Source: a virus. Taken from it: DNA of 22,471 bases. The position numbers and the translations under genes are program-made. The notes under the pieces are model-generated. The model did not search any database, was not told the origin of the DNA, and was given only the letters and a program-made list of their open reading frames with translations. The stretch lies in the IMG/VR virus record IMGVR_UViG_3300025671_000591, positions 1 to 22,471 of that record; one strand, given 5' to 3'. Below are positions 3,149 through 17,098 of this stretch, in pieces (position 1 is the first letter of the stretch; each line of letters begins with the position of its first letter).

Positions 3149-4126
3149 ATGGCTTTTGATTTATTTGAACTTACCGACGCTATAAAACAATACACGGACA
3201 ACGATGAAACGTCGTTTGTTAACAACATTCCGCTTTTTATTCGTCAAGCCGAAGAGCGTATTTTAAAAAGTGTTCAATTGAGCTTGTTTAGAAAAAACGC
3301 AACAGCCACCGTTACAGATGGATACGCTTACATAAACATTCCTAGTGATTTTCTGGCTCCGTTTTCAATGAGTCTAAATGGAAACCCGTTTCCAAAAACT
3401 GGTAGCGTTTATAATATTGCGACTTGTTTTAGTCTGGCATCGGTGGGTATAGAAAGCCCACCCGGCACGCGCTTAAATGTTGATGTATTAGGCACTGGTC
3501 GTATCTTAGGAGCTATCACTGATCCAGATGCTACTCAGGTAACCGTCAATGACACCAATGCTATAAACTTCTATCTAAAATATAAGGTTCAAGGACAATC
3601 ACGAAACTCTACCTTGACGGATGACCAAATCACTTACATAGAAGAAACCTTACTGCCTTATATGGCACAATATCCAAGTATATATAGCACGTTATATCAG
3701 GGTGATATTATTCAAGGTTTATATTACTTAGAGTTTAAAGACGTAAGTTTTTTGCGAGATTATGGCGATGAAGGCTATAACCAAGCCACTCGAGGATTAC
3801 CAAAATATTATGCTCAATTTGACAATGATAATTTCATATTATCTCCGGTGCCCGATGCTGTTTACGAAGTTCAACTAAGCTATCTGTACCGGCCTCAAAG
3901 TCTCACCGAGACATTTACAGCTACTTGGTTAAGTACAAATGCGGAACTAACGCTATTGTACGGATGTTTGGTAGAAGCGTATTTGTACATGAAGGGTGAA
4001 CAGGATATGATGGCGTATTATGACAAACGCTTTAATGAGTCATTAGTAGGTCTGAAGTTGCTAGGGGAAGCAAAAGAAACCACGGATCAGTATAGAACGG
4101 GAATGGTAATAAGGGCGAAACAGTAA
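3149..4126 (+). CDS. Phage adaptor protein, SU10-adaptor-like
   Basis: This 325-residue protein starts directly after the previous TAA. The N-terminus IPLFIRQAEERILKSVQL with TDGYAYINIPSDFLAPFSM, and the C-terminal part RGLPKYYAQFDNDNFILSPV, then YEVQLSYLYRPQSLTE and a helical end, are the pattern I know from marine phage 'adaptor' proteins compared with the phiSU10 adaptor. They act in the neck under the portal. Members I remember run nearly straight from PSDFLAPFSL to the FL.KDV.FIREY segment; here residues about 78-190 lie between these, including a Thr/Asp-rich beta stretch (RILGAITDPDATQVTVND), which looks like an inserted domain. The C-terminal helices LTLLYGCLVEAYLYMKGEQD may pack against neighbours in the ring. 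Confidence 0.65.
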   Translation: MAFDLFELTDAIKQYTDNDETSFVNNIPLFIRQAEERILKSVQLSLFRKNATATVTDGYAYINIPSDFLAPFSMSLNGNPFPKTGSVYNIATCFSLASVGIESPPGTRLNVDVLGTGRILGAITDPDATQVTVNDTNAINFYLKYKVQGQSRNSTLTDDQITYIEETLLPYMAQYPSIYSTLYQGDIIQGLYYLEFKDVSFLRDYGDEGYNQATRGLPKYYAQFDNDNFILSPVPDAVYEVQLSYLYRPQSLTETFTATWLSTNAELTLLYGCLVEAYLYMKGEQDMMAYYDKRFNESLVGLKLLGEAKETTDQYRTGMVIRAKQ

Positions 4127-9726: not shown

Positions 9727-10233
9727 ATGAGTAAAATATCCGCAGGAATTACAACTCTTACCGCGTTGCAAAGCGAAGCAGATGTCAGCGGTGAACTGCA
9801 ACTACGCACTAATGGCTCAACGACAGCACTGACGTTAGGCACGGATCAGTCTGCTACATTTGCTGGGGCAGCAACCTTCTCGTCTACGGCTACGGTAAGC
9901 GGTGGTTTGAACGAAAGCCAAGTAGACATAACAGATGCAAGTCCTGTGATAGACTGTTCTGCGGGGAATGTCTTTGCTATTACTACTACTGGGAATCCAG
10001 TAGCGTTTACTGCATCTAATGTCCCAGCTTCAGGCACTGCTTATGGGTTTATTTTGAAGATTACCGCAAGCGGTACAGTAACCGTAAACTACGCAGGATT
10101 AGGCACATTATATTGGGCTGGTGGCACGGCACCTGACGCACCTGCTTCTGGTGAGACAGACGTACTTGGGTTCTTGACATATGATGGCGGCACAAGCTGG
10201 TATGGATTCCTAGCGGGAGACGCAATGGCATGA
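9727..10233 (+). CDS. Fibre connector/adaptor protein of cassette 1, 168 aa
   Basis: AAGGAG (9715-9720) lies 6 bases before the ATG. The N-terminus (MSKISAGITTLTALQSEADV, then SGELQLRTNGSTTALTLGTD) is a known short fibre-domain pattern. The C-terminal ~95 residues (SPVIDCSAGNVFAITTTG, SGTAYGFILKITASGTVTV, GGTAPDAPASGETDVLGFL, SWYGFLAGDAMA) are clearly related to the same region of the gene at 11692, and more distantly to the one at 14664. Each is followed immediately by a large beta-rich protein, so I infer that this small protein anchors or joins that protein to the virion. Its stop overlaps the next start as ATGA, which suggests coupled, perhaps equimolar, synthesis. Confidence 0.7.
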   Translation: MSKISAGITTLTALQSEADVSGELQLRTNGSTTALTLGTDQSATFAGAATFSSTATVSGGLNESQVDITDASPVIDCSAGNVFAITTTGNPVAFTASNVPASGTAYGFILKITASGTVTVNYAGLGTLYWAGGTAPDAPASGETDVLGFLTYDGGTSWYGFLAGDAMA

Positions 10234-11681
10234 GCCTAACCAGCTTTATATCTATTTTATCGGCAGCATCCACAAGTGCGCTTAAAGGTCGAGTGGACGG
10301 TCAATTGGTTACATGGCCTGAACTTGGAACTTTTATAAGTAAGATGCAGTTTAATGCAGTGAGCGGTAAACACGCTGTAAGGCTTTCAGATACTAGTGGT
10401 AGGGTTCCCAATACCGTAGGTGTCTTTGGCTTGTTAGATTCAAACTGTACTGATTTTTTGTGGGCATTCTACGTTATAAACGCAGCGGGGTCAGGCGGAA
10501 AACAAGTACAAAGTTTATTAGATGTTTGTATAGATGCCTCTGACAATGTTTATTTCCTAATAAGGATAGCTACAAAGCATTTTGGTATGGGTAAAGTTTC
10601 TCCATCTGGCACTGTGTTGTGGTACGTGGAATGTGATGAATCTGCGAACGGATCATTTATTTCATTAGATTTTAACTCAATAGCAGCAAATGATACAACT
10701 GTTTTTACTTCTGGTAATGGTCGAGAAAACGCATCTTCAAATCCACATGGTGTAATACGTGCTAATGCCTCTTCAAATGGAGGAGACTATACAGGGTATG
10801 CTGGGAAAAGGGCGGGTTATTGTACATTAGGGTATTACAACTCTACCGCTTCTAGTTTTGCGAATAGATCAACAATGGTTTACAACGGAACTGAAGACCG
10901 TGTTATTGTTTCAGGTAGCGATACTGGTAATGGTTATAGTATAATTAGTAACTGGAATTTAAAAACAGTAAATGGTTCTTCTTCCGATACAAGTGCGGTA
11001 TTCAGTCAAGAATTTGGCTATAATTATTCATTTTACACAGAGCCGTGTGCCTTATTCTCTGTGTTTTCCAGACCACATGATACAAGCTCTGGTGGCAAAT
11101 ATGTTTGCTACGCGGGTCGAGTTAGGGACAATTCATCACAGAGTTTTTATTATGGTCATGTTGCCATGCTGAATGAGGTGTCGAGCAGTACTGGTCAAAC
11201 TAATAGATTTCAAAGAGGCGTTTACATTCAAGATAGCTCTAATGTAGTACCAACCACTATGCAAGACGCTGTATACACAACGGAATCGGATGGGACTGGA
11301 AGCTATCCGTTTTATTTTAGATACCAATCAGTTCTTTTTAGAAATGGCTATGCTCAAACCAATAATACAACCAACGATTACCAACTTTTGATTTCAAATT
11401 TTGGTACTATTCAAAACATGAGTGTTACATCAGATCACAACACAATTGTTTATGGAAATATGCCGGGTAATCTTACAGCTTTGTTTATACAACCAAAGGA
11501 TGGTAGTACATGGACAACAAATGCGGGTCTTTCTGTATCAACATACAGCGAGTACACACTTAATCAAGTTTTTGTGCCGCTTAATAACCAAACTAGCGGT
11601 GGGCCACCTTTTAATAACAGTCAAGCCAACAGCGAAGCAAACTATGCTGGCGCAACTCAGCCTACGTTGACACCCGTATAA
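10230..11681 (+). CDS. Distal fibre protein of cassette 1, beta-propeller-like, 483 aa
   Basis: The ATG at 10230 overlaps the upstream stop (ATGA). The protein is rich in Ser, Asn, Gly, Tyr and Phe. Phrases such as LLDVCIDASDNVYFLIRIAT, FGMGKVSPSGTVLWYVECD and a later VCYAGRVRDNSSQSFYYGHV recur in the style of SBBP/NHL-type beta-propeller blades ('V.+D.SGN.Y++....+....+.K....G...W'). It differs from the DUF7483-like proteins of cassettes 2 and 3. The C-terminal ~70 residues are low-complexity Asn/Thr/Pro. The likely role is a receptor-binding or other surface appendage tip; the beta-propeller assignment is inference from spacing and phrase pattern. It ends with AAGGAG for the next gene within its stop region. 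Confidence 0.65.
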   Translation: MSLTSFISILSAASTSALKGRVDGQLVTWPELGTFISKMQFNAVSGKHAVRLSDTSGRVPNTVGVFGLLDSNCTDFLWAFYVINAAGSGGKQVQSLLDVCIDASDNVYFLIRIATKHFGMGKVSPSGTVLWYVECDESANGSFISLDFNSIAANDTTVFTSGNGRENASSNPHGVIRANASSNGGDYTGYAGKRAGYCTLGYYNSTASSFANRSTMVYNGTEDRVIVSGSDTGNGYSIISNWNLKTVNGSSSDTSAVFSQEFGYNYSFYTEPCALFSVFSRPHDTSSGGKYVCYAGRVRDNSSQSFYYGHVAMLNEVSSSTGQTNRFQRGVYIQDSSNVVPTTMQDAVYTTESDGTGSYPFYFRYQSVLFRNGYAQTNNTTNDYQLLISNFGTIQNMSVTSDHNTIVYGNMPGNLTALFIQPKDGSTWTTNAGLSVSTYSEYTLNQVFVPLNNQTSGGPPFNNSQANSEANYAGATQPTLTPV

Positions 11682-11691
11682 GGAGACGAAA

Positions 11692-12162
11692 ATGGTAGTA
11701 ACAATTAACGGCACAACAGGTATTTCGTCATCTGGTAATATCGTGACGACGGGGTCTGGTTCTATTTCATCCGTTACAACTCTCACCTCTGTGGGCGATG
11801 CGACGATGGGCGCAAACCTAATTGCGGATTCCTATCAGGAGACTACGGCAGACCTGACGGGTACTAGCCCTGTAATAGACTGCGCTGTGGCTAATGTGTT
11901 TACCTTGACCACAAGCGGGGCTACAGCGTTTCAAGCGGCAACCAACGTGCCTACAACAGGGACTGGTTATAGCTTCATGTTAAAAATCACGGCAGGGGGT
12001 ACACATACTGTGGACTATGACCTGCTAGGGACAAACGTGTACTTCGCAGGTGGAACTGCCCCTGTCCCTCCTGCATCTGGAGAAACAGACATCTTGGTCT
12101 TCACGACTATAGATGGTGGTACAACATGGTATGGAGCGTTGGCTATCGACGCAGCGAGTTAA
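11692..12162 (+). CDS. Fibre connector/adaptor protein of cassette 2, 156 aa
   Basis: AAGGAG (11680-11685) lies 6 bases before the ATG. A short, variable N-terminus (VVTINGTTGISSSGNIVTTG) precedes a C-terminal region paralogous to that of the gene at 9727. Shared features, in order, are SPVIDC..(G/A)NVF..TT, TGYSFMLKITAGGTHTV, YFAGGTAPVPPASGETD and TTWYGALA. DNA identity in this region is visibly below that of a recent copy, so the duplication is old or was acquired separately. Only three bases separate its stop from the next start, and that start has no clear ribosome-binding site of its own, so expression of the following large gene probably depends on translation of this one. Confidence 0.7.
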   Translation: MVVTINGTTGISSSGNIVTTGSGSISSVTTLTSVGDATMGANLIADSYQETTADLTGTSPVIDCAVANVFTLTTSGATAFQAATNVPTTGTGYSFMLKITAGGTHTVDYDLLGTNVYFAGGTAPVPPASGETDILVFTTIDGGTTWYGALAIDAAS

Positions 12163-12165
12163 GAC

Positions 12166-14133
12166 ATGAGTCAAATCTCTAAAAATCAATTTTTTGCAGC
12201 GGCAGGAAATTCTGCGCAAGCTGGCCTGAATGTTGAGGAAGTATTTTCTACCTATCTTTATGACGGAACAGGTGCCACTCAATCAATTACTAATGACATT
12301 GATCTTAGTGGTGAAGGTGGCATGACTTGGCTTAAAATTAGGTCTCTTAATGGATATGACCACTCAGTATATGACACAGAAAGAGGTGCAAACAAACGAA
12401 TTGTTCCAAACAGCACTGGTGAAGAATTTACAAGAAGTGGTGGATTAACTAGTTTTAACAGTGATGGCTTTACTCTTGGAAATGCTGGAGATGAAAACCA
12501 AAGTGGTGCAAACATTGTTTCTTGGACATTCCGCAAAGCCCCTAAGTTCTTTGATGTGGTGACTTATACTGGGACAGGCAGTAATCAAAACATTTCCCAC
12601 AGCCTAGGTTGTGTTCCAGGGTTTGTAGTTGTGAAGAAAACATCTGGTACTGGAAATTGGTCTGCTTGGCACAGATCATTGCCAGATGCTAATGATTATA
12701 TACTTTTAAATACAACTAACGGAGCACTTGATGGTGGGTCTTCATATAATAGGAGTGTTACTGACACGACTTATCAAGTATTTGGAGACTATCCTGACGA
12801 AAACCAATCTGGTCAAACCTACGTAGCCTACCTATTCGCCCACAACGATGGTGACGGTGAGTTCGGCCCCACAGGGGATCAGGATATTATCAAGTGTGGG
12901 AGTTATACTGGTAATGGTTCATCTATTAATGGCCCAGAAATTGATTTAGGGTTTGAGCCAGAGTGGATTGTAATAAAAAGAACAGATGCTGCTGGAGGTT
13001 GGCATATAGGCGACTCAATGCGAGGCATTTCTAATGGAAGTGATGATCCTTATTTAACAGTAAGTCAAAGCGATGAAGGTCAATCATTTGATTGGTTGAG
13101 TTTAAGCGCAACAGGTTTCTCAATAACAACTGGCAGTCAAAATATAAATTTAGTTGGAGGAAGCTATATCTATATAGCCATACGCCGTGGTCCAATGGCG
13201 GTGCCTGAGAGTGCAACTGATGTATTTGCGGTACAGCCTTGGGACGGAGCGGCAGCTATTCCTCAATTTGTTTCTGGGTTTCCTGTTGATTTTGCAATTC
13301 ACAAAAATAAAACTGCTAACTCAGAAATTTTTTCAAGCGCAAGATTAACACAGCAACTCTATATGGAAACCAGCACAAGTCTGCTTCTTTCTTCAGATAC
13401 AAATTTTATGTTTGATTATCAGAATGGGTATTACGATGCAGCCACAAGTGCTAACTTTGTTTCTTGGATGTGGAGGCGTTCGCCAAACTTTTTTGATGCG
13501 CTTTTTTATAGAGGAGACTCTGTAGCAGGTAGGCAAGTACCGCATAATTTAGGAGCGGTTCCTGAAATGATATGGGTTAAGCGTACCGACGGCGCAGGAA
13601 ACTGGTGGGTATATCATAAAGACCAGCAGGCATCGACAGTAGGAGGGTTGCGGCCCCCTGAAAACTCTGCTTCTCGTTTAGATTTAGACAATATAGCTGT
13701 TGACGGTACAAACTATTGGAACGACACTTTGCCGTCTAGCACAGCGTTTACGGTTGGAAACTTGTCTAACACAAATGGAGTCGGAAACGACTATATGGCA
13801 TATTTGTTTACATCCTTGGCTGGAATTTCAAAGTGTGGTGGGTATATTGGGAACGGAACAACGTTATCTATCGACTGCGGTTTTTCTGCTGGTACTAGGC
13901 TTGTAATAATAAAACGAACAAATGCTACGGGCGGCTGGTTTATTTTTGATAGTTTGCGAGGTATGAGTTCTGGAAATGACAGCACATTAGAACTTAATGA
14001 CAGTGCGCCTGAAGTAATAAATGAAGATGTTATCGAGGCTACTACCACAGGCTTTAACGTAATAAATAGTGGTAGTACAGTAGATACAAATGATCTTAAT
14101 GATAGATACATTTTCTACGCGATAGCAACATAA
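12166..14133 (+). CDS. Distal appendage protein of cassette 2, six DUF7483-like modules, 655 aa
   Basis: After a leader (LNVEEVFSTYLYDGTG) the protein falls into six modules of ~90-116 residues: A 27-130, B 131-246, C 247-356, D 357-446, E 447-558, F 559-655. A and D close with FVSW/IVSW-type strands then (K/R)..P.FFD; B and E close with YVAYLF/YMAYLF; C and F close with YIYIAI/YIFYAI. The order is therefore ABC twice. Typical internal phrases are NISHSLGCVPGFVVVKKTSG, GTGNWSAWHRSL and GFEPEWIVIKRTDAAGGWHI. I recognise this as the DUF7483-type domain of marine phage fibres, function unproven; receptor or glycan binding is the obvious inference. It is paralogous along its whole length to the gene at 15107. 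Confidence 0.75.
   Translation: MSQISKNQFFAAAGNSAQAGLNVEEVFSTYLYDGTGATQSITNDIDLSGEGGMTWLKIRSLNGYDHSVYDTERGANKRIVPNSTGEEFTRSGGLTSFNSDGFTLGNAGDENQSGANIVSWTFRKAPKFFDVVTYTGTGSNQNISHSLGCVPGFVVVKKTSGTGNWSAWHRSLPDANDYILLNTTNGALDGGSSYNRSVTDTTYQVFGDYPDENQSGQTYVAYLFAHNDGDGEFGPTGDQDIIKCGSYTGNGSSINGPEIDLGFEPEWIVIKRTDAAGGWHIGDSMRGISNGSDDPYLTVSQSDEGQSFDWLSLSATGFSITTGSQNINLVGGSYIYIAIRRGPMAVPESATDVFAVQPWDGAAAIPQFVSGFPVDFAIHKNKTANSEIFSSARLTQQLYMETSTSLLLSSDTNFMFDYQNGYYDAATSANFVSWMWRRSPNFFDALFYRGDSVAGRQVPHNLGAVPEMIWVKRTDGAGNWWVYHKDQQASTVGGLRPPENSASRLDLDNIAVDGTNYWNDTLPSSTAFTVGNLSNTNGVGNDYMAYLFTSLAGISKCGGYIGNGTTLSIDCGFSAGTRLVIIKRTNATGGWFIFDSLRGMSSGNDSTLELNDSAPEVINEDVIEATTTGFNVINSGSTVDTNDLNDRYIFYAIAT
12254..14130 (+). 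repeat. Six-module (ABC-ABC) domain repeat in the 655-aa protein
   Basis: This protein-level repeat is described by residue ranges in the gene entry. The two three-module halves are roughly 12244-13233 and 13234-14130. Best marks are the strand-closing phrases at the end of each module. DNA identity between the halves is low. Confidence 0.6.
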
Positions 14134-14144
14134 CTCAAAGCCTG

Positions 14145-14152
14145 AAAGGAGA
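14145..14152 (+). promoter_or_regulatory. Ribosome-binding site of the assembly chaperone gene
   Basis: AAAGGAGA lies 8 bases before the ATG at 14161. It sits in the 27-base gap after the 655-aa gene, so the chaperone has its own strong initiation site and is not merely coupled to the gene before it. Confidence 0.7.
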
Positions 14153-14160
14153 ATCAACTA

Positions 14161-14646
14161 ATGGCTGAATATCGAAACCGAACAACTGGCGAAGTTAAAT
14201 CCCAAGGGGAGATTCGTCGTGACCACCCAAATATGTCTATACCTCGTGTGTGGAACGATGGGGTATGTGATGCGCTAAACGTGGACCCAGTGCTTCCGGG
14301 TACTCGTCCAACTCCGGGTCAGTATCAAACAGTGCGCCGTGACGGTGTAGAACAAAACGATGCAGGTGATTGGGTTGAGAAGTGGGTCGTTGCAGACATG
14401 TTTGCAGACGGAGAAGATGGCACTAAAGCCGAAAAAGAAGCGGCATACCAAGCTACTCTAGATGCGAACATCGCTGCTCAAAATCGCACTGCACGTAACG
14501 ACAAACTTGCAGAGACAGATTTCTGGGGTATGTCTGATATGACTATGAGTGCGGAAATGACTACCTATCGTCAAGCACTTCGTGATATAACTACACATAG
14601 CAATTGGCCCAACCTAGAAGAGGGCGACTGGCCTACGAAGCCTTAA
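14161..14646 (+). CDS. Phage tail fibre assembly chaperone-like protein, 161 aa
   Basis: A strong AAAGGAGA (14145-14152) lies 8 bases before the ATG. The C-terminal ~55 residues, RNDKLAETDFWGMSDMTMSA followed by TTYRQALRDITTHSNWPN and WPTKP, match the pattern of the phage tail assembly chaperone family (Phage_tail_APC, PF16778: 'R..LL..TDW....D.....E...YRQALRD+......P......WP..P') as I remember it. The N-terminal part (NRTTGEVKSQGEIRRDHP, and SIPRVWNDGVCDALNVDPVL) is the usual upstream region. Proteins of this kind help fibre or tail proteins fold. Its position between cassettes 2 and 3 suggests that it serves one or both of these large proteins. The next gene begins 17 bases later. Confidence 0.75.
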   Translation: MAEYRNRTTGEVKSQGEIRRDHPNMSIPRVWNDGVCDALNVDPVLPGTRPTPGQYQTVRRDGVEQNDAGDWVEKWVVADMFADGEDGTKAEKEAAYQATLDANIAAQNRTARNDKLAETDFWGMSDMTMSAEMTTYRQALRDITTHSNWPNLEEGDWPTKP

Positions 14647-14651
14647 ACGCT

Positions 14652-14656
14652 AGGAG
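14652..14656 (+). promoter_or_regulatory. Ribosome-binding site fixing the start of the cassette 3 adaptor
   Basis: AGGAG lies 7 bases before the ATG at 14664. This decides against a start at 14604, where no comparable site is seen and the frame would run through the chaperone gene. Confidence 0.7.
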
Positions 14657-14663
14657 TGACGAC

Positions 14664-15107
14664 ATGACTACACTTATAAACGCCGACACCGTATTAGGCG
14701 GAGCGATAGTGACAGGTGATGCTTCTGGGCAGCTTGGTCTTCAAGCTGCGGGGACGACATTAATGGAACTTTCGGGAAGTGTCGTCACTGTTTCAGGCGA
14801 TGCCTCTTTTGAAAAGTCTATTGTGGAAAACGTATATACACTGTCGGGTACAGAAATTGATCCCTCAAACGGAACAATTCAGACAAAAGTATTGTCCGCT
14901 CCAGTGACGTTTACTGAAAGCTTTTCGTCCGGGGAAAGCGTTGTTCTTATGATTGAGAATGGCGCAACTCACTCAATTTTGTGGCCCACTGTCACTTGGG
15001 TCACAAGTGCAGGGAATGCTGCGCCTACACCTACAGAAAAAGACACCTTTGTGTTTTGGAAAATTAGCACAACACTATACGGAGCTTATGTCGGGAGCTA
15101 CGTCTAA
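14664..15107 (+). CDS. Fibre connector/adaptor protein of cassette 3, 147 aa
   Basis: The start at 14664 is chosen because AGGAG at 14652-14656 lies 7 bases before it; the frame continues upstream to 14604 but only inside the chaperone gene. The N-terminal part (INADTVLGGAIVTGDASGQL, GLQAAGTTLMELSG) resembles short fibre domains. The C-terminus TEIDPSNGTIQTKVLSAPVT, then MIENGATHSILWPTVTWVTS and ending FVFWKISTTLYGAYVGSYV, is a common fibre-end domain ('G.IQT..L......W..V.W......LYGA'). It shares only the last part (AP.P...+T...W..YGA) with the adaptors of cassettes 1 and 2. TAATG overlap couples it to the large gene at 15107. Confidence 0.7.
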   Translation: MTTLINADTVLGGAIVTGDASGQLGLQAAGTTLMELSGSVVTVSGDASFEKSIVENVYTLSGTEIDPSNGTIQTKVLSAPVTFTESFSSGESVVLMIENGATHSILWPTVTWVTSAGNAAPTPTEKDTFVFWKISTTLYGAYVGSYV

Positions 15108-17098
15108 TGGCTAAACTATCAAAGGCTCTACAAGCAGCTTCGGTTTCGGATGCAGCAGGTCTAAATGTTGAAGATGTATTTAGTACTTATTTGTACACTG
15201 GTAATGGTGCAGGTGAAGGCACTGTTATGCAAACTATTGAGAATGAAATTGATCTTGATGGTCAAGGTGGGATGGTCTGGATTAAATCTAGATCAACTAG
15301 AGATCATAATTTACAAGATACAGAAAGGGGTATAGCCTCTCAACTAGCATCAAATACAGCAGATGAGGAAACTGTTTTTACAAATCGTATAAGTGCTTTT
15401 AATTCAAATGGGTTTGATTTGAAAGGAAACGTAGTTGTAAATGCTAACAATGAAGACTTCGCCTCTTGGTCATGGAGGAAAGCTCGTAAATTTTTCGATA
15501 TACAAACTTGGACCGGAAATGGCACTGCGGGTCGCGTTATCTCACATAATTTAGGCTCTCGCCCGGGTATGATTATTACTAAATGCTATAGCGATTCGGC
15601 CCCGGATTGGACTGTATGGCATACTAATAGAAACGGTACTAATACTCATCTAAGATTAAATGAGATAAACCTTCCCCAACCCGGAGAAGACATTTCAGCA
15701 GCAACAGATACAACTTTCACTGTTGGTAATGACAATAGAATTAACGGTGTTAGCCCACGTCAATATGTAGCTTATATATTCGGTAACAATAATGGTGATG
15801 GAAACTTCGGCCCTACAGCGGATCAGGATATCATTAAGTGTGGGTCTTATTCTGGTACAGGTGTTGATGGAAACTTTGTAGACTTAGGGTTTGAGCCTCA
15901 ATGGATATTAATAAAAAACGTTACAAATAATGCAAACTGGGTGATATATGATAACATGAGAGGCATTTCTTTGGAGGGACAAGACCCTTATTTAAGACCT
16001 GCAAATGATACTCAAGAGGGCGAAAATGAAGCTTTATCGTTACGCCCTGATGGTTTCGAATTACTTGGAAGCCACATCGAAAGTAATGCATCAGCCAATA
16101 CTTACATCTACGTAGCAATTCGTCGTGGTCAAATGGGTCTACCTGAAAGTTCAAGTGAAGTCTTCAATACCTTATTGAGGACTGGTAATGGCGTAGATAC
16201 GTTTCTTAACCAGCAAATTTTATGTGACGCAGTCTTTACTTTGTGCCGCTCAAATACCGAACCTAAAGTTACAAGCACTAGACTCTTTGCCAGCAGTAAT
16301 GGTAACGGGTTAAAAACAAGTACAGATGTTAATAGAGTGTTGACTAGTTTCGGCTTTGAGGGTTGGGACTACAACAACGGATGGCTGGTAGACGCTGGTA
16401 AAAGTGAAACAAATACACTTAATGAGGCTTATGTTAACTATGCTTTCAAAAGATCGCGTGGGTTCTTTGATATAGCTTCTTATCGTGGAGATGGGTCCAG
16501 TCAACTTACGGTTCCTCACAATCTAGGCGTAGTGCCTGAGATGATGCTTACTAAAATGTATTATAAAGACATTTCAGCAGGTTCTCCCAGTATTAGATTT
16601 TTTGCTTATCATAAAGATTTAGAAGCGACAGAAGGTTTGTGGTTTGATAACGATATAGCTGTAACAACAGGTCGTCTGTACTGGGGTAGTACTCGACCCA
16701 CAGCAGAAAACTTTTATGTGGGCGGTATATCAGACAACAACATAAACGCTTGTAAGTACATAAACTATTTATTTGCATCTGTTCCCGGTTTGTCAAAAGT
16801 TGGAAGTTATCAGGGCAATGATGGGACTCAGGCTATCGATTGCGGCTTTTCTAACGGAGCGCAGTTTGTAATTCTAAAGAACATAACGGGTATTGGAGAT
16901 TGGATCGTAGTAGATTCTCAAAGAGGGATTACCTCTAGCACCGATCCGTTTTTAGAGTTTAATACTACTATTCAAGAGCAAACCGACGACTGCGTATCAG
17001 CAAACAGTTCGGGGTTCAACGTAATTCAAAGTGTTTTTAATACAAATATAAATGCAACTGGAAACACTTACATCTTCTACGCAATAGCCGCTCCATAG
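15107..17098 (+). CDS. Distal appendage protein of cassette 3, six DUF7483-like modules, 663 aa
   Basis: The ATG overlaps the upstream stop (TAATG at 15105-15109). The leader LNVEDVFSTYLYTGNG is nearly that of the 655-aa protein. The module order is the same: A 24-131, B 132-247, C 248-354, D 355-455, E 456-566, F 567-663. Marks are DTERGIASQLASN, RKARKFFDI, NNNGDGNFGPTADQDIIKCG, LGFEPQWILIK, YVAIRRGQMGLPESSSEVF, VPHNLGVVPEMM and the end NTYIFYAIAAP. The two proteins are paralogues throughout but differ most in modules D and E. A receptor-binding appendage is likely by analogy; no catalytic residues are seen. This is the last gene of the appendage block before the nozzle gene. Confidence 0.75.
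   Translation: MAKLSKALQAASVSDAAGLNVEDVFSTYLYTGNGAGEGTVMQTIENEIDLDGQGGMVWIKSRSTRDHNLQDTERGIASQLASNTADEETVFTNRISAFNSNGFDLKGNVVVNANNEDFASWSWRKARKFFDIQTWTGNGTAGRVISHNLGSRPGMIITKCYSDSAPDWTVWHTNRNGTNTHLRLNEINLPQPGEDISAATDTTFTVGNDNRINGVSPRQYVAYIFGNNNGDGNFGPTADQDIIKCGSYSGTGVDGNFVDLGFEPQWILIKNVTNNANWVIYDNMRGISLEGQDPYLRPANDTQEGENEALSLRPDGFELLGSHIESNASANTYIYVAIRRGQMGLPESSSEVFNTLLRTGNGVDTFLNQQILCDAVFTLCRSNTEPKVTSTRLFASSNGNGLKTSTDVNRVLTSFGFEGWDYNNGWLVDAGKSETNTLNEAYVNYAFKRSRGFFDIASYRGDGSSQLTVPHNLGVVPEMMLTKMYYKDISAGSPSIRFFAYHKDLEATEGLWFDNDIAVTTGRLYWGSTRPTAENFYVGGISDNNINACKYINYLFASVPGLSKVGSYQGNDGTQAIDCGFSNGAQFVILKNITGIGDWIVVDSQRGITSSTDPFLEFNTTIQEQTDDCVSANSSGFNVIQSVFNTNINATGNTYIFYAIAAP

Follow-up and report, generated by a model that had tools for sequence, protein, structure and literature searches.

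What do two large, similarly built genes standing side by side in a viral genome encode, and how did they come to differ? The window (the whole stretch of 22,471 bases that was analysed) is one viral record, IMGVR_UViG_3300025671_000591, with tail and head-completion genes, two SU10-adaptor-like proteins and several fibre-like proteins, and its gene content suggests a short-tailed phage. It encodes short and long proteins in three tandem pairs, of which the last two each consist of a short protein with a proposed connector domain and one of the large proteins, P1 or P2. The coordinates of both large ORFs in an earlier note on this DNA were correct, and the features discussed below are as follows.

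11692..12162, plus strand: short fibre-like protein directly upstream of P1 (phrog_9017 tail fiber, 1.3e-7); its C-terminal domain of about 90 aa is the proposed connector
12166-14133, plus strand: P1 ORF, 655 aa
12238..12552, plus strand: P1 module A, residues 25-129, borders from HMMs and strands from AlphaFold; closing strand FFD
12553..12879, plus strand: P1 module B, residues 130-238; closing strand YVAYLF; pLDDT 89.1 and pTM 0.82 when predicted alone with AlphaFold
12880..13215, plus strand: P1 module C, residues 239-350; closing strand YIYIAIRRG
13216..13494, plus strand: P1 module D, residues 351-443; closing strand FFD; most variable module
13495..13818, plus strand: P1 module E, residues 444-551; closing strand YMAYLF
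13819..14130, plus strand: P1 module F, residues 552-655; closing strand YIFYAI; most conserved slot
14161..14646, plus strand: tail-fibre assembly chaperone (Phage_tail_APC, PF16778, 9.8e-10) directly 3' of P1
14664..15107, plus strand: short fibre-like protein directly upstream of P2, 147 aa, ATG at 14664; C-terminal domain as in the protein upstream of P1
15107-17098, plus strand: P2 ORF, 663 aa
15173..15496, plus strand: P2 module A, residues 23-130
15497..15823, plus strand: P2 module B, residues 131-239
15824..16153, plus strand: P2 module C, residues 240-349
16154..16468, plus strand: P2 module D, residues 350-454
16469..16783, plus strand: P2 module E, residues 455-559
16784..17089, plus strand: P2 module F, residues 560-661

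The only Pfam family above cut-off in P1 and P2 is DUF7483 (PF24299, 330 positions), found as two stretches in each of them (290.9 and 277.3 bits; curated cut-off 27), and both chains end with module F. Relatives are encoded at 589 or more places in IMG/VR, and phages that infect Roseobacter, SAR11, Prochlorococcus and Synechococcus are among those that have them. Yet no function has been described for this widespread family; a literature search on the term DUF7483 found no paper, and the Pfam label holds no function, no inner three-module repeat and no exchange, of which the latter two are seen here.

Every copy of DUF7483 splits into three homologous modules of about 100 aa apiece. Profiles were needed to detect this repeat, since blastp of P1 and of P2 against themselves reported no internal repeat. 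In module profiles from 43 aligned six-module proteins (the rows kept as full among the 49 of alignment A1), all 15 module pairs are homologous (E 1e-7 or better), and the reciprocal best matches are A-D (79/83), B-E (198/194) and C-F (153/155); B-E and C-F win by a wide margin, A-D by a smaller one. The same groups appear in a mixture-model tree of 102 modules from 12 six-module and 10 three-module proteins, for which group-wise alignments were merged: A and D with the A modules of single units (100/96), B and E with single-unit B (99/95), and C and F with single-unit C (100/99). A first FastTree of 345 modules (unguided alignment, midpoint root) had left the grouping unresolved with D modules scattered, and was replaced by the guided alignment. 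When the closing-strand patterns were loosened and counted over 136 distinct proteins, FFD was found in 132 A and 64 D modules and in no B, C, E or F; the YVAYLF type in 108 B, 72 E and 3 D modules and no others; and the YIYIAI type in 107 C and 97 F modules and no others. The earlier note had read six modules in the order ABC-ABC and had proposed that A would group with D, B with E and C with F. Both are borne out by the profiles, the tree and the slot-specific closing strands.

The domain borders expected from this reading also agree with the predicted structure. When P1 was modelled with AlphaFold from 49 sequences (pLDDT 90.8, pTM 0.90), the strand pattern recurred from module to module through all six, the strands of module B predicted alone are those of the full model, and single-domain structural matches (VIA) at residues 26-124, 124-225, 241-344, 346-438 and 551-655 each cover a single module. 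P1 and P2 are probably each a rigid string of six homologous beta-sandwich domains, i.e., two DUF7483 units of three. Sequence searches of solved structures gave no match for P1 or P2, and the fold matches are all weak (Z below 8), mostly to domains of tailspikes and fibre tips, to lectins of the galectin type and to immunoglobulin-like domains; the C-terminal domain of Pseudomonas aeruginosa pseudaminidase comes first (Z 5.7). Module B superimposes on the C-terminal beta domains of fibre tips and tailspikes (AP22 gp53, 4mtm; R2 pyocin, 6ct8; Pam1, 7eea) over 61-67 residues with rmsd 2.0-2.7 and 13-16% identity. Z is 4.3-4.8 against these and against 6cl6, low enough that the likeness may extend no further than a common arrangement. 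In a Foldseek search on the question of a fibre-head knob fold, the best E was 0.096. For the whole of P1 against the PDB, the best Foldseek match was 9k09_U from the tail of cyanophage A4 (probability 0.38). Several of the chains listed (APC-beta, a Parkia lectin, PCSK9 and a single-chain adiponectin trimer) have three beta domains around a pseudo-threefold axis, a resemblance that is a hint only because the TM-scores are 0.11-0.29.

The three-module unit also exists independently. It makes up whole ABC proteins, about 360 aa long, is repeated in tandem in L167 and L163, and forms the C-terminal end of long fibre-like proteins that other phages encode, one of them annotated as a fiber protein. 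A census of loci, identical copies included, gave 146 ABCDEF ORFs, 6 with an extra weak A, 18 ABC and a few multiples. These slot calls are partly circular, as 43 of the classified proteins had served to train the HMMs for the slots. No module stood in a wrong slot in the ABCDEF-type proteins of the loci surveyed. Separate arrangements are ABCABC, seen in one protein (L167), and AECAEC, seen in two (L005, L006). Since most relatives found have the ABC-DEF form, the duplication of ABC that created it predates the split of P1 and P2, and the ancestor suggested in the earlier note is supported to this extent. In the 102-module tree, single units of the pelagiphage type, which may have branched before or after this duplication, place B beside E, C beside C and A outside A, and within-type trees do not cleanly separate single-unit proteins from the N- or C-half. 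P1 and P2 are not near paralogues. Among the 135 neighbours of P1, P2 ranks 102nd for A, 107th for B, 44th for C, 123rd for D, 67th for E and 74th for F, and with such low ranks in all modules the pair is two divergent copies side by side and not a recent local duplication.

The gene context points to a role at the tail. Among six-module ORFs followed by 700 nt of sequence, 114 of 133 have a Phage_tail_APC-like ORF directly after them; the set includes near-identical and twice-fetched contigs (e.g., L008/L153, L014/L157). ORFs of the Phage_tail_APC type make up only 143 of the 2705 in the loci. P1 has this chaperone gene; P2 is among the 19 of 133 without one directly 3'. On the other side, the C-terminal connector domain of about 90 aa was detected in 32 of 78 ORFs upstream of six-module genes versus 4 of 1364 other ORFs. 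As regards the 46 upstream ORFs missed by the connector HMM, some look related by eye and several resemble homing-endonuclease genes. PHROGs gave a tail match (phrog_24898, tail fiber), and an NCBIfam search gave no match. The best PHROG match is phrog_19943, a 'virion structural protein' of the class head and packaging, and tandem beta-sandwich proteins do decorate some capsids; P1 and P2 might therefore be decorations of the capsid or virion surface whose modules bind glycans or mucus non-specifically. We consider this unlikely given the chaperone and fibre-like neighbours and the long fibre-like proteins that end with the three-module unit. With a fibre-like connector encoded upstream and a fibre chaperone downstream, a distal tail adhesin is the best explanation, and P1 and P2 are probably such adhesins of a short-tailed phage. 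Attachment of each one to the tail is probably the task of the short fibre-like protein from the gene before it, and the adhesins probably fold with help from the chaperone whose gene follows P1.

The slots differ in variability. The identities between P1 and P2 are.476 for A,.375 for B,.473 for C,.207 for D,.388 for E and.447 for F, and the corresponding means over the 136 distinct proteins are.48,.47,.45,.30,.42 and.55. D was the least identical of the six modules in 8174 of 9180 pairs, and E in 605. The earlier note had named D and E as the modules that differ most, in line with a variable binding surface located there. The greater variability holds for D, which is a clear outlier in both comparisons; E is the second most variable slot across the 136 proteins but not between P1 and P2, where it is level with B and has more gap columns in the alignment. 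Slot D is thus the most variable, and variability itself does not equal binding. The domains probably form the host-contacting surface, on which slot D would diversify fastest.

Close relatives form striking mosaics of modules. We analyzed 136 distinct six-module proteins, nearly all metagenomic and with identical sequences collapsed, and the identities of different modules correlate weakly across the 9180 pairs (Spearman 0.18-0.37). Almost all pairs with one module at least 90% identical have another below 60% (105 of 108). L096 and L102 share an identical C (1.00), with the remaining modules at.42-.66; L045 and L041 share E (.95; remaining modules.41-.74); L121 and L013 share DEF (.86/1.0/.93), with ABC at.42-.55; and L023 and L022 share all modules except C. 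For mapping of crossovers, 21 non-overlapping pairs were drawn from 79 candidate blocks, with each sequence used once, and aligned by codon. Within these pairs, 26 of 29 crossovers lie at most 15 residues from a module border (expected 25%, p 4e-13), and the border signal was gone, with none left, when the borders were moved by 40-50 residues. Pairwise re-alignment of the 21 pairs without module borders placed 26 of 30 crossovers near borders (p 2e-12). These results show, as the new point, independent exchange at six homologous slots, the crossovers falling at domain borders. As the modules are the units of exchange, a single history of duplication followed by divergence does not describe genes of the P1/P2 type, and the duplication account of the earlier note, though supported, is incomplete.

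The DNA at some borders may help to guide the crossovers. We compared codons at identical residues in the 8426 pairs with every module below 70% identity, and found an excess of identical codons at B/C (+0.088) and C/D (+0.115) and a smaller one at A/B (+0.043), which is what crossover sites would be expected to show. The excess is absent at D/E (-0.009) and E/F (-0.043) although exchanges occur there too, and it is also found inside A at 46-59, which is not a border. Similar DNA might therefore guide crossovers at some borders, but not as a general rule. P1 and P2 themselves have no recent swap with any contig compared (best module identity 0.64), and the five phage isolates compared have none among themselves. 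Isolate CRP-4 has an E module 0.91 identical to that of L109, and its other modules are at most 0.68 identical to any contig compared. The isolates CRP-1, 4, 9 and 13 have no common module above 0.69, hence no slot can be tied to their host, FZCC0023.

Most loci are metagenome contigs and the border strands are conserved, so the mosaics could be chimeric contigs joined at these sequences, with the true genes evolving by ordinary descent; the junctions in L022 and L096 were each found in one contig. We regard this as quite improbable. For 2 of the 21 pairs (L019/L015, L045/L041), each of the two haplotypes was met again in metagenomes with separate numbers, and for four more one haplotype was (L013, L023, L024, L102), a count that left out L157, a replicate of L014, because it is the same contig. 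One pair includes the isolate CRP-4. Moreover, DNA identity within the shared blocks is often no higher than 85-92%, a pattern which a join of two strains, each with outside relatives, could mimic. Unequal rates without exchange (fast D and E, constrained B and F) would fit the range of slot means from D to F and the frequency with which D is lowest, but are refuted, unless the contigs are chimeric, by slots that are fixed in one pair and free in another (C is the sole difference in L023/L022 and the sole shared module in L096/L102, and L045/L041 have just E in common) and by breakpoints on module borders, which leaves this explanation with next to no likelihood. Diversity-generating retroelements produce a pattern of point mutations, unlike the whole-module exchange found here.

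Domain mosaicism of phage receptor-binding proteins is already known, and homologous exchange in fixed slots is a new form of it. One report describes ongoing shuffling of fragments between the proteins of tail fibres and tail spikes (PMC10684548). Shuffling is common to that description and ours; here the six exchanged parts are homologous, keep fixed slots and have crossovers mapped to their borders. For Alteromonas phages A5 and V22, another describes a fibre with a cognate DUF4376 chaperone downstream, common to unrelated phages, as well as a duplicated knob domain and a lectin-like tip fold as in pyocin (PMC10579305). The chaperone gene after the fibre is as for P1, but those fibres are described with one or two knobs per chain, compared to six domains and a separate connector gene here, and the likeness need not reflect homology.

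Six-slot genes probably evolve largely in this way: whole domains pass between phages at their borders, each into its own slot, and new combinations arise out of a common pool, perhaps driven by selection on host range. It is possible, if rather doubtful, that DUF7483 adhesins form a combinatorial recognition system, in which six slots have their own pools of beta domains common to many aquatic phages and are swapped at border DNA islands kept similar, most clearly around slot C; the three-domain unit may then be a single-chain counterpart of a trimeric fibre head, with three different faces replacing three identical ones. Host-recognition genes of marine phages are described as under-recruiting in viromes (PMC3909814). 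If the domains bind hosts as proposed, exchange of single domains may help phages to re-tune which cells they grip. Collectively, a fixed scaffold of six slots with natural exchanges of single domains is a ready-made experiment, and comparison of natural one-slot variants could reveal the slot on which the host specificity of ocean phages depends.

The window holds three tandem gene pairs, in each of which a short fibre-like protein is followed by a long protein, and a C-terminal domain is common to the short proteins of all three:

9727-10233, short protein, and 10230-11681, long protein (pair 1)
11692-12162, short protein, and 12166-14133, long protein, the six-module P1 (pair 2)
14664-15107, short protein, and 15107-17098, long protein, the six-module P2 (pair 3)

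The long protein of the first pair (483 aa) has no family match in Pfam, PHROGs or NCBIfam. Elsewhere in the window, this one phage also encodes two distinct SU10-adaptor-like proteins (1983-2651 and 3149-4126).

Among related loci from other phages, two to four genes for DUF7483, the unit of three homologous modules A, B and C, lie in tandem on one contig (L167 21-7199, L163 1-4956, L124 and L053). Repeat-bearing ORFs are found immediately 5' of the DUF7483 ORF, i.e., the probable adhesin gene, in L043, L045, L047, L063, L070 and L068, and judged by eye these repeats look like homing endonuclease repeats.

Unit order can be rearranged or tripled within single long phage proteins, as in L086 (201-4670) and L085 (3645-8444), where the orders found are A-A-BC-BC-ABC and three ABC. 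In L084, L005, L006 and L007, long insertions separate module A from module B of one unit; thus, the A/B border tolerates extra sequence.
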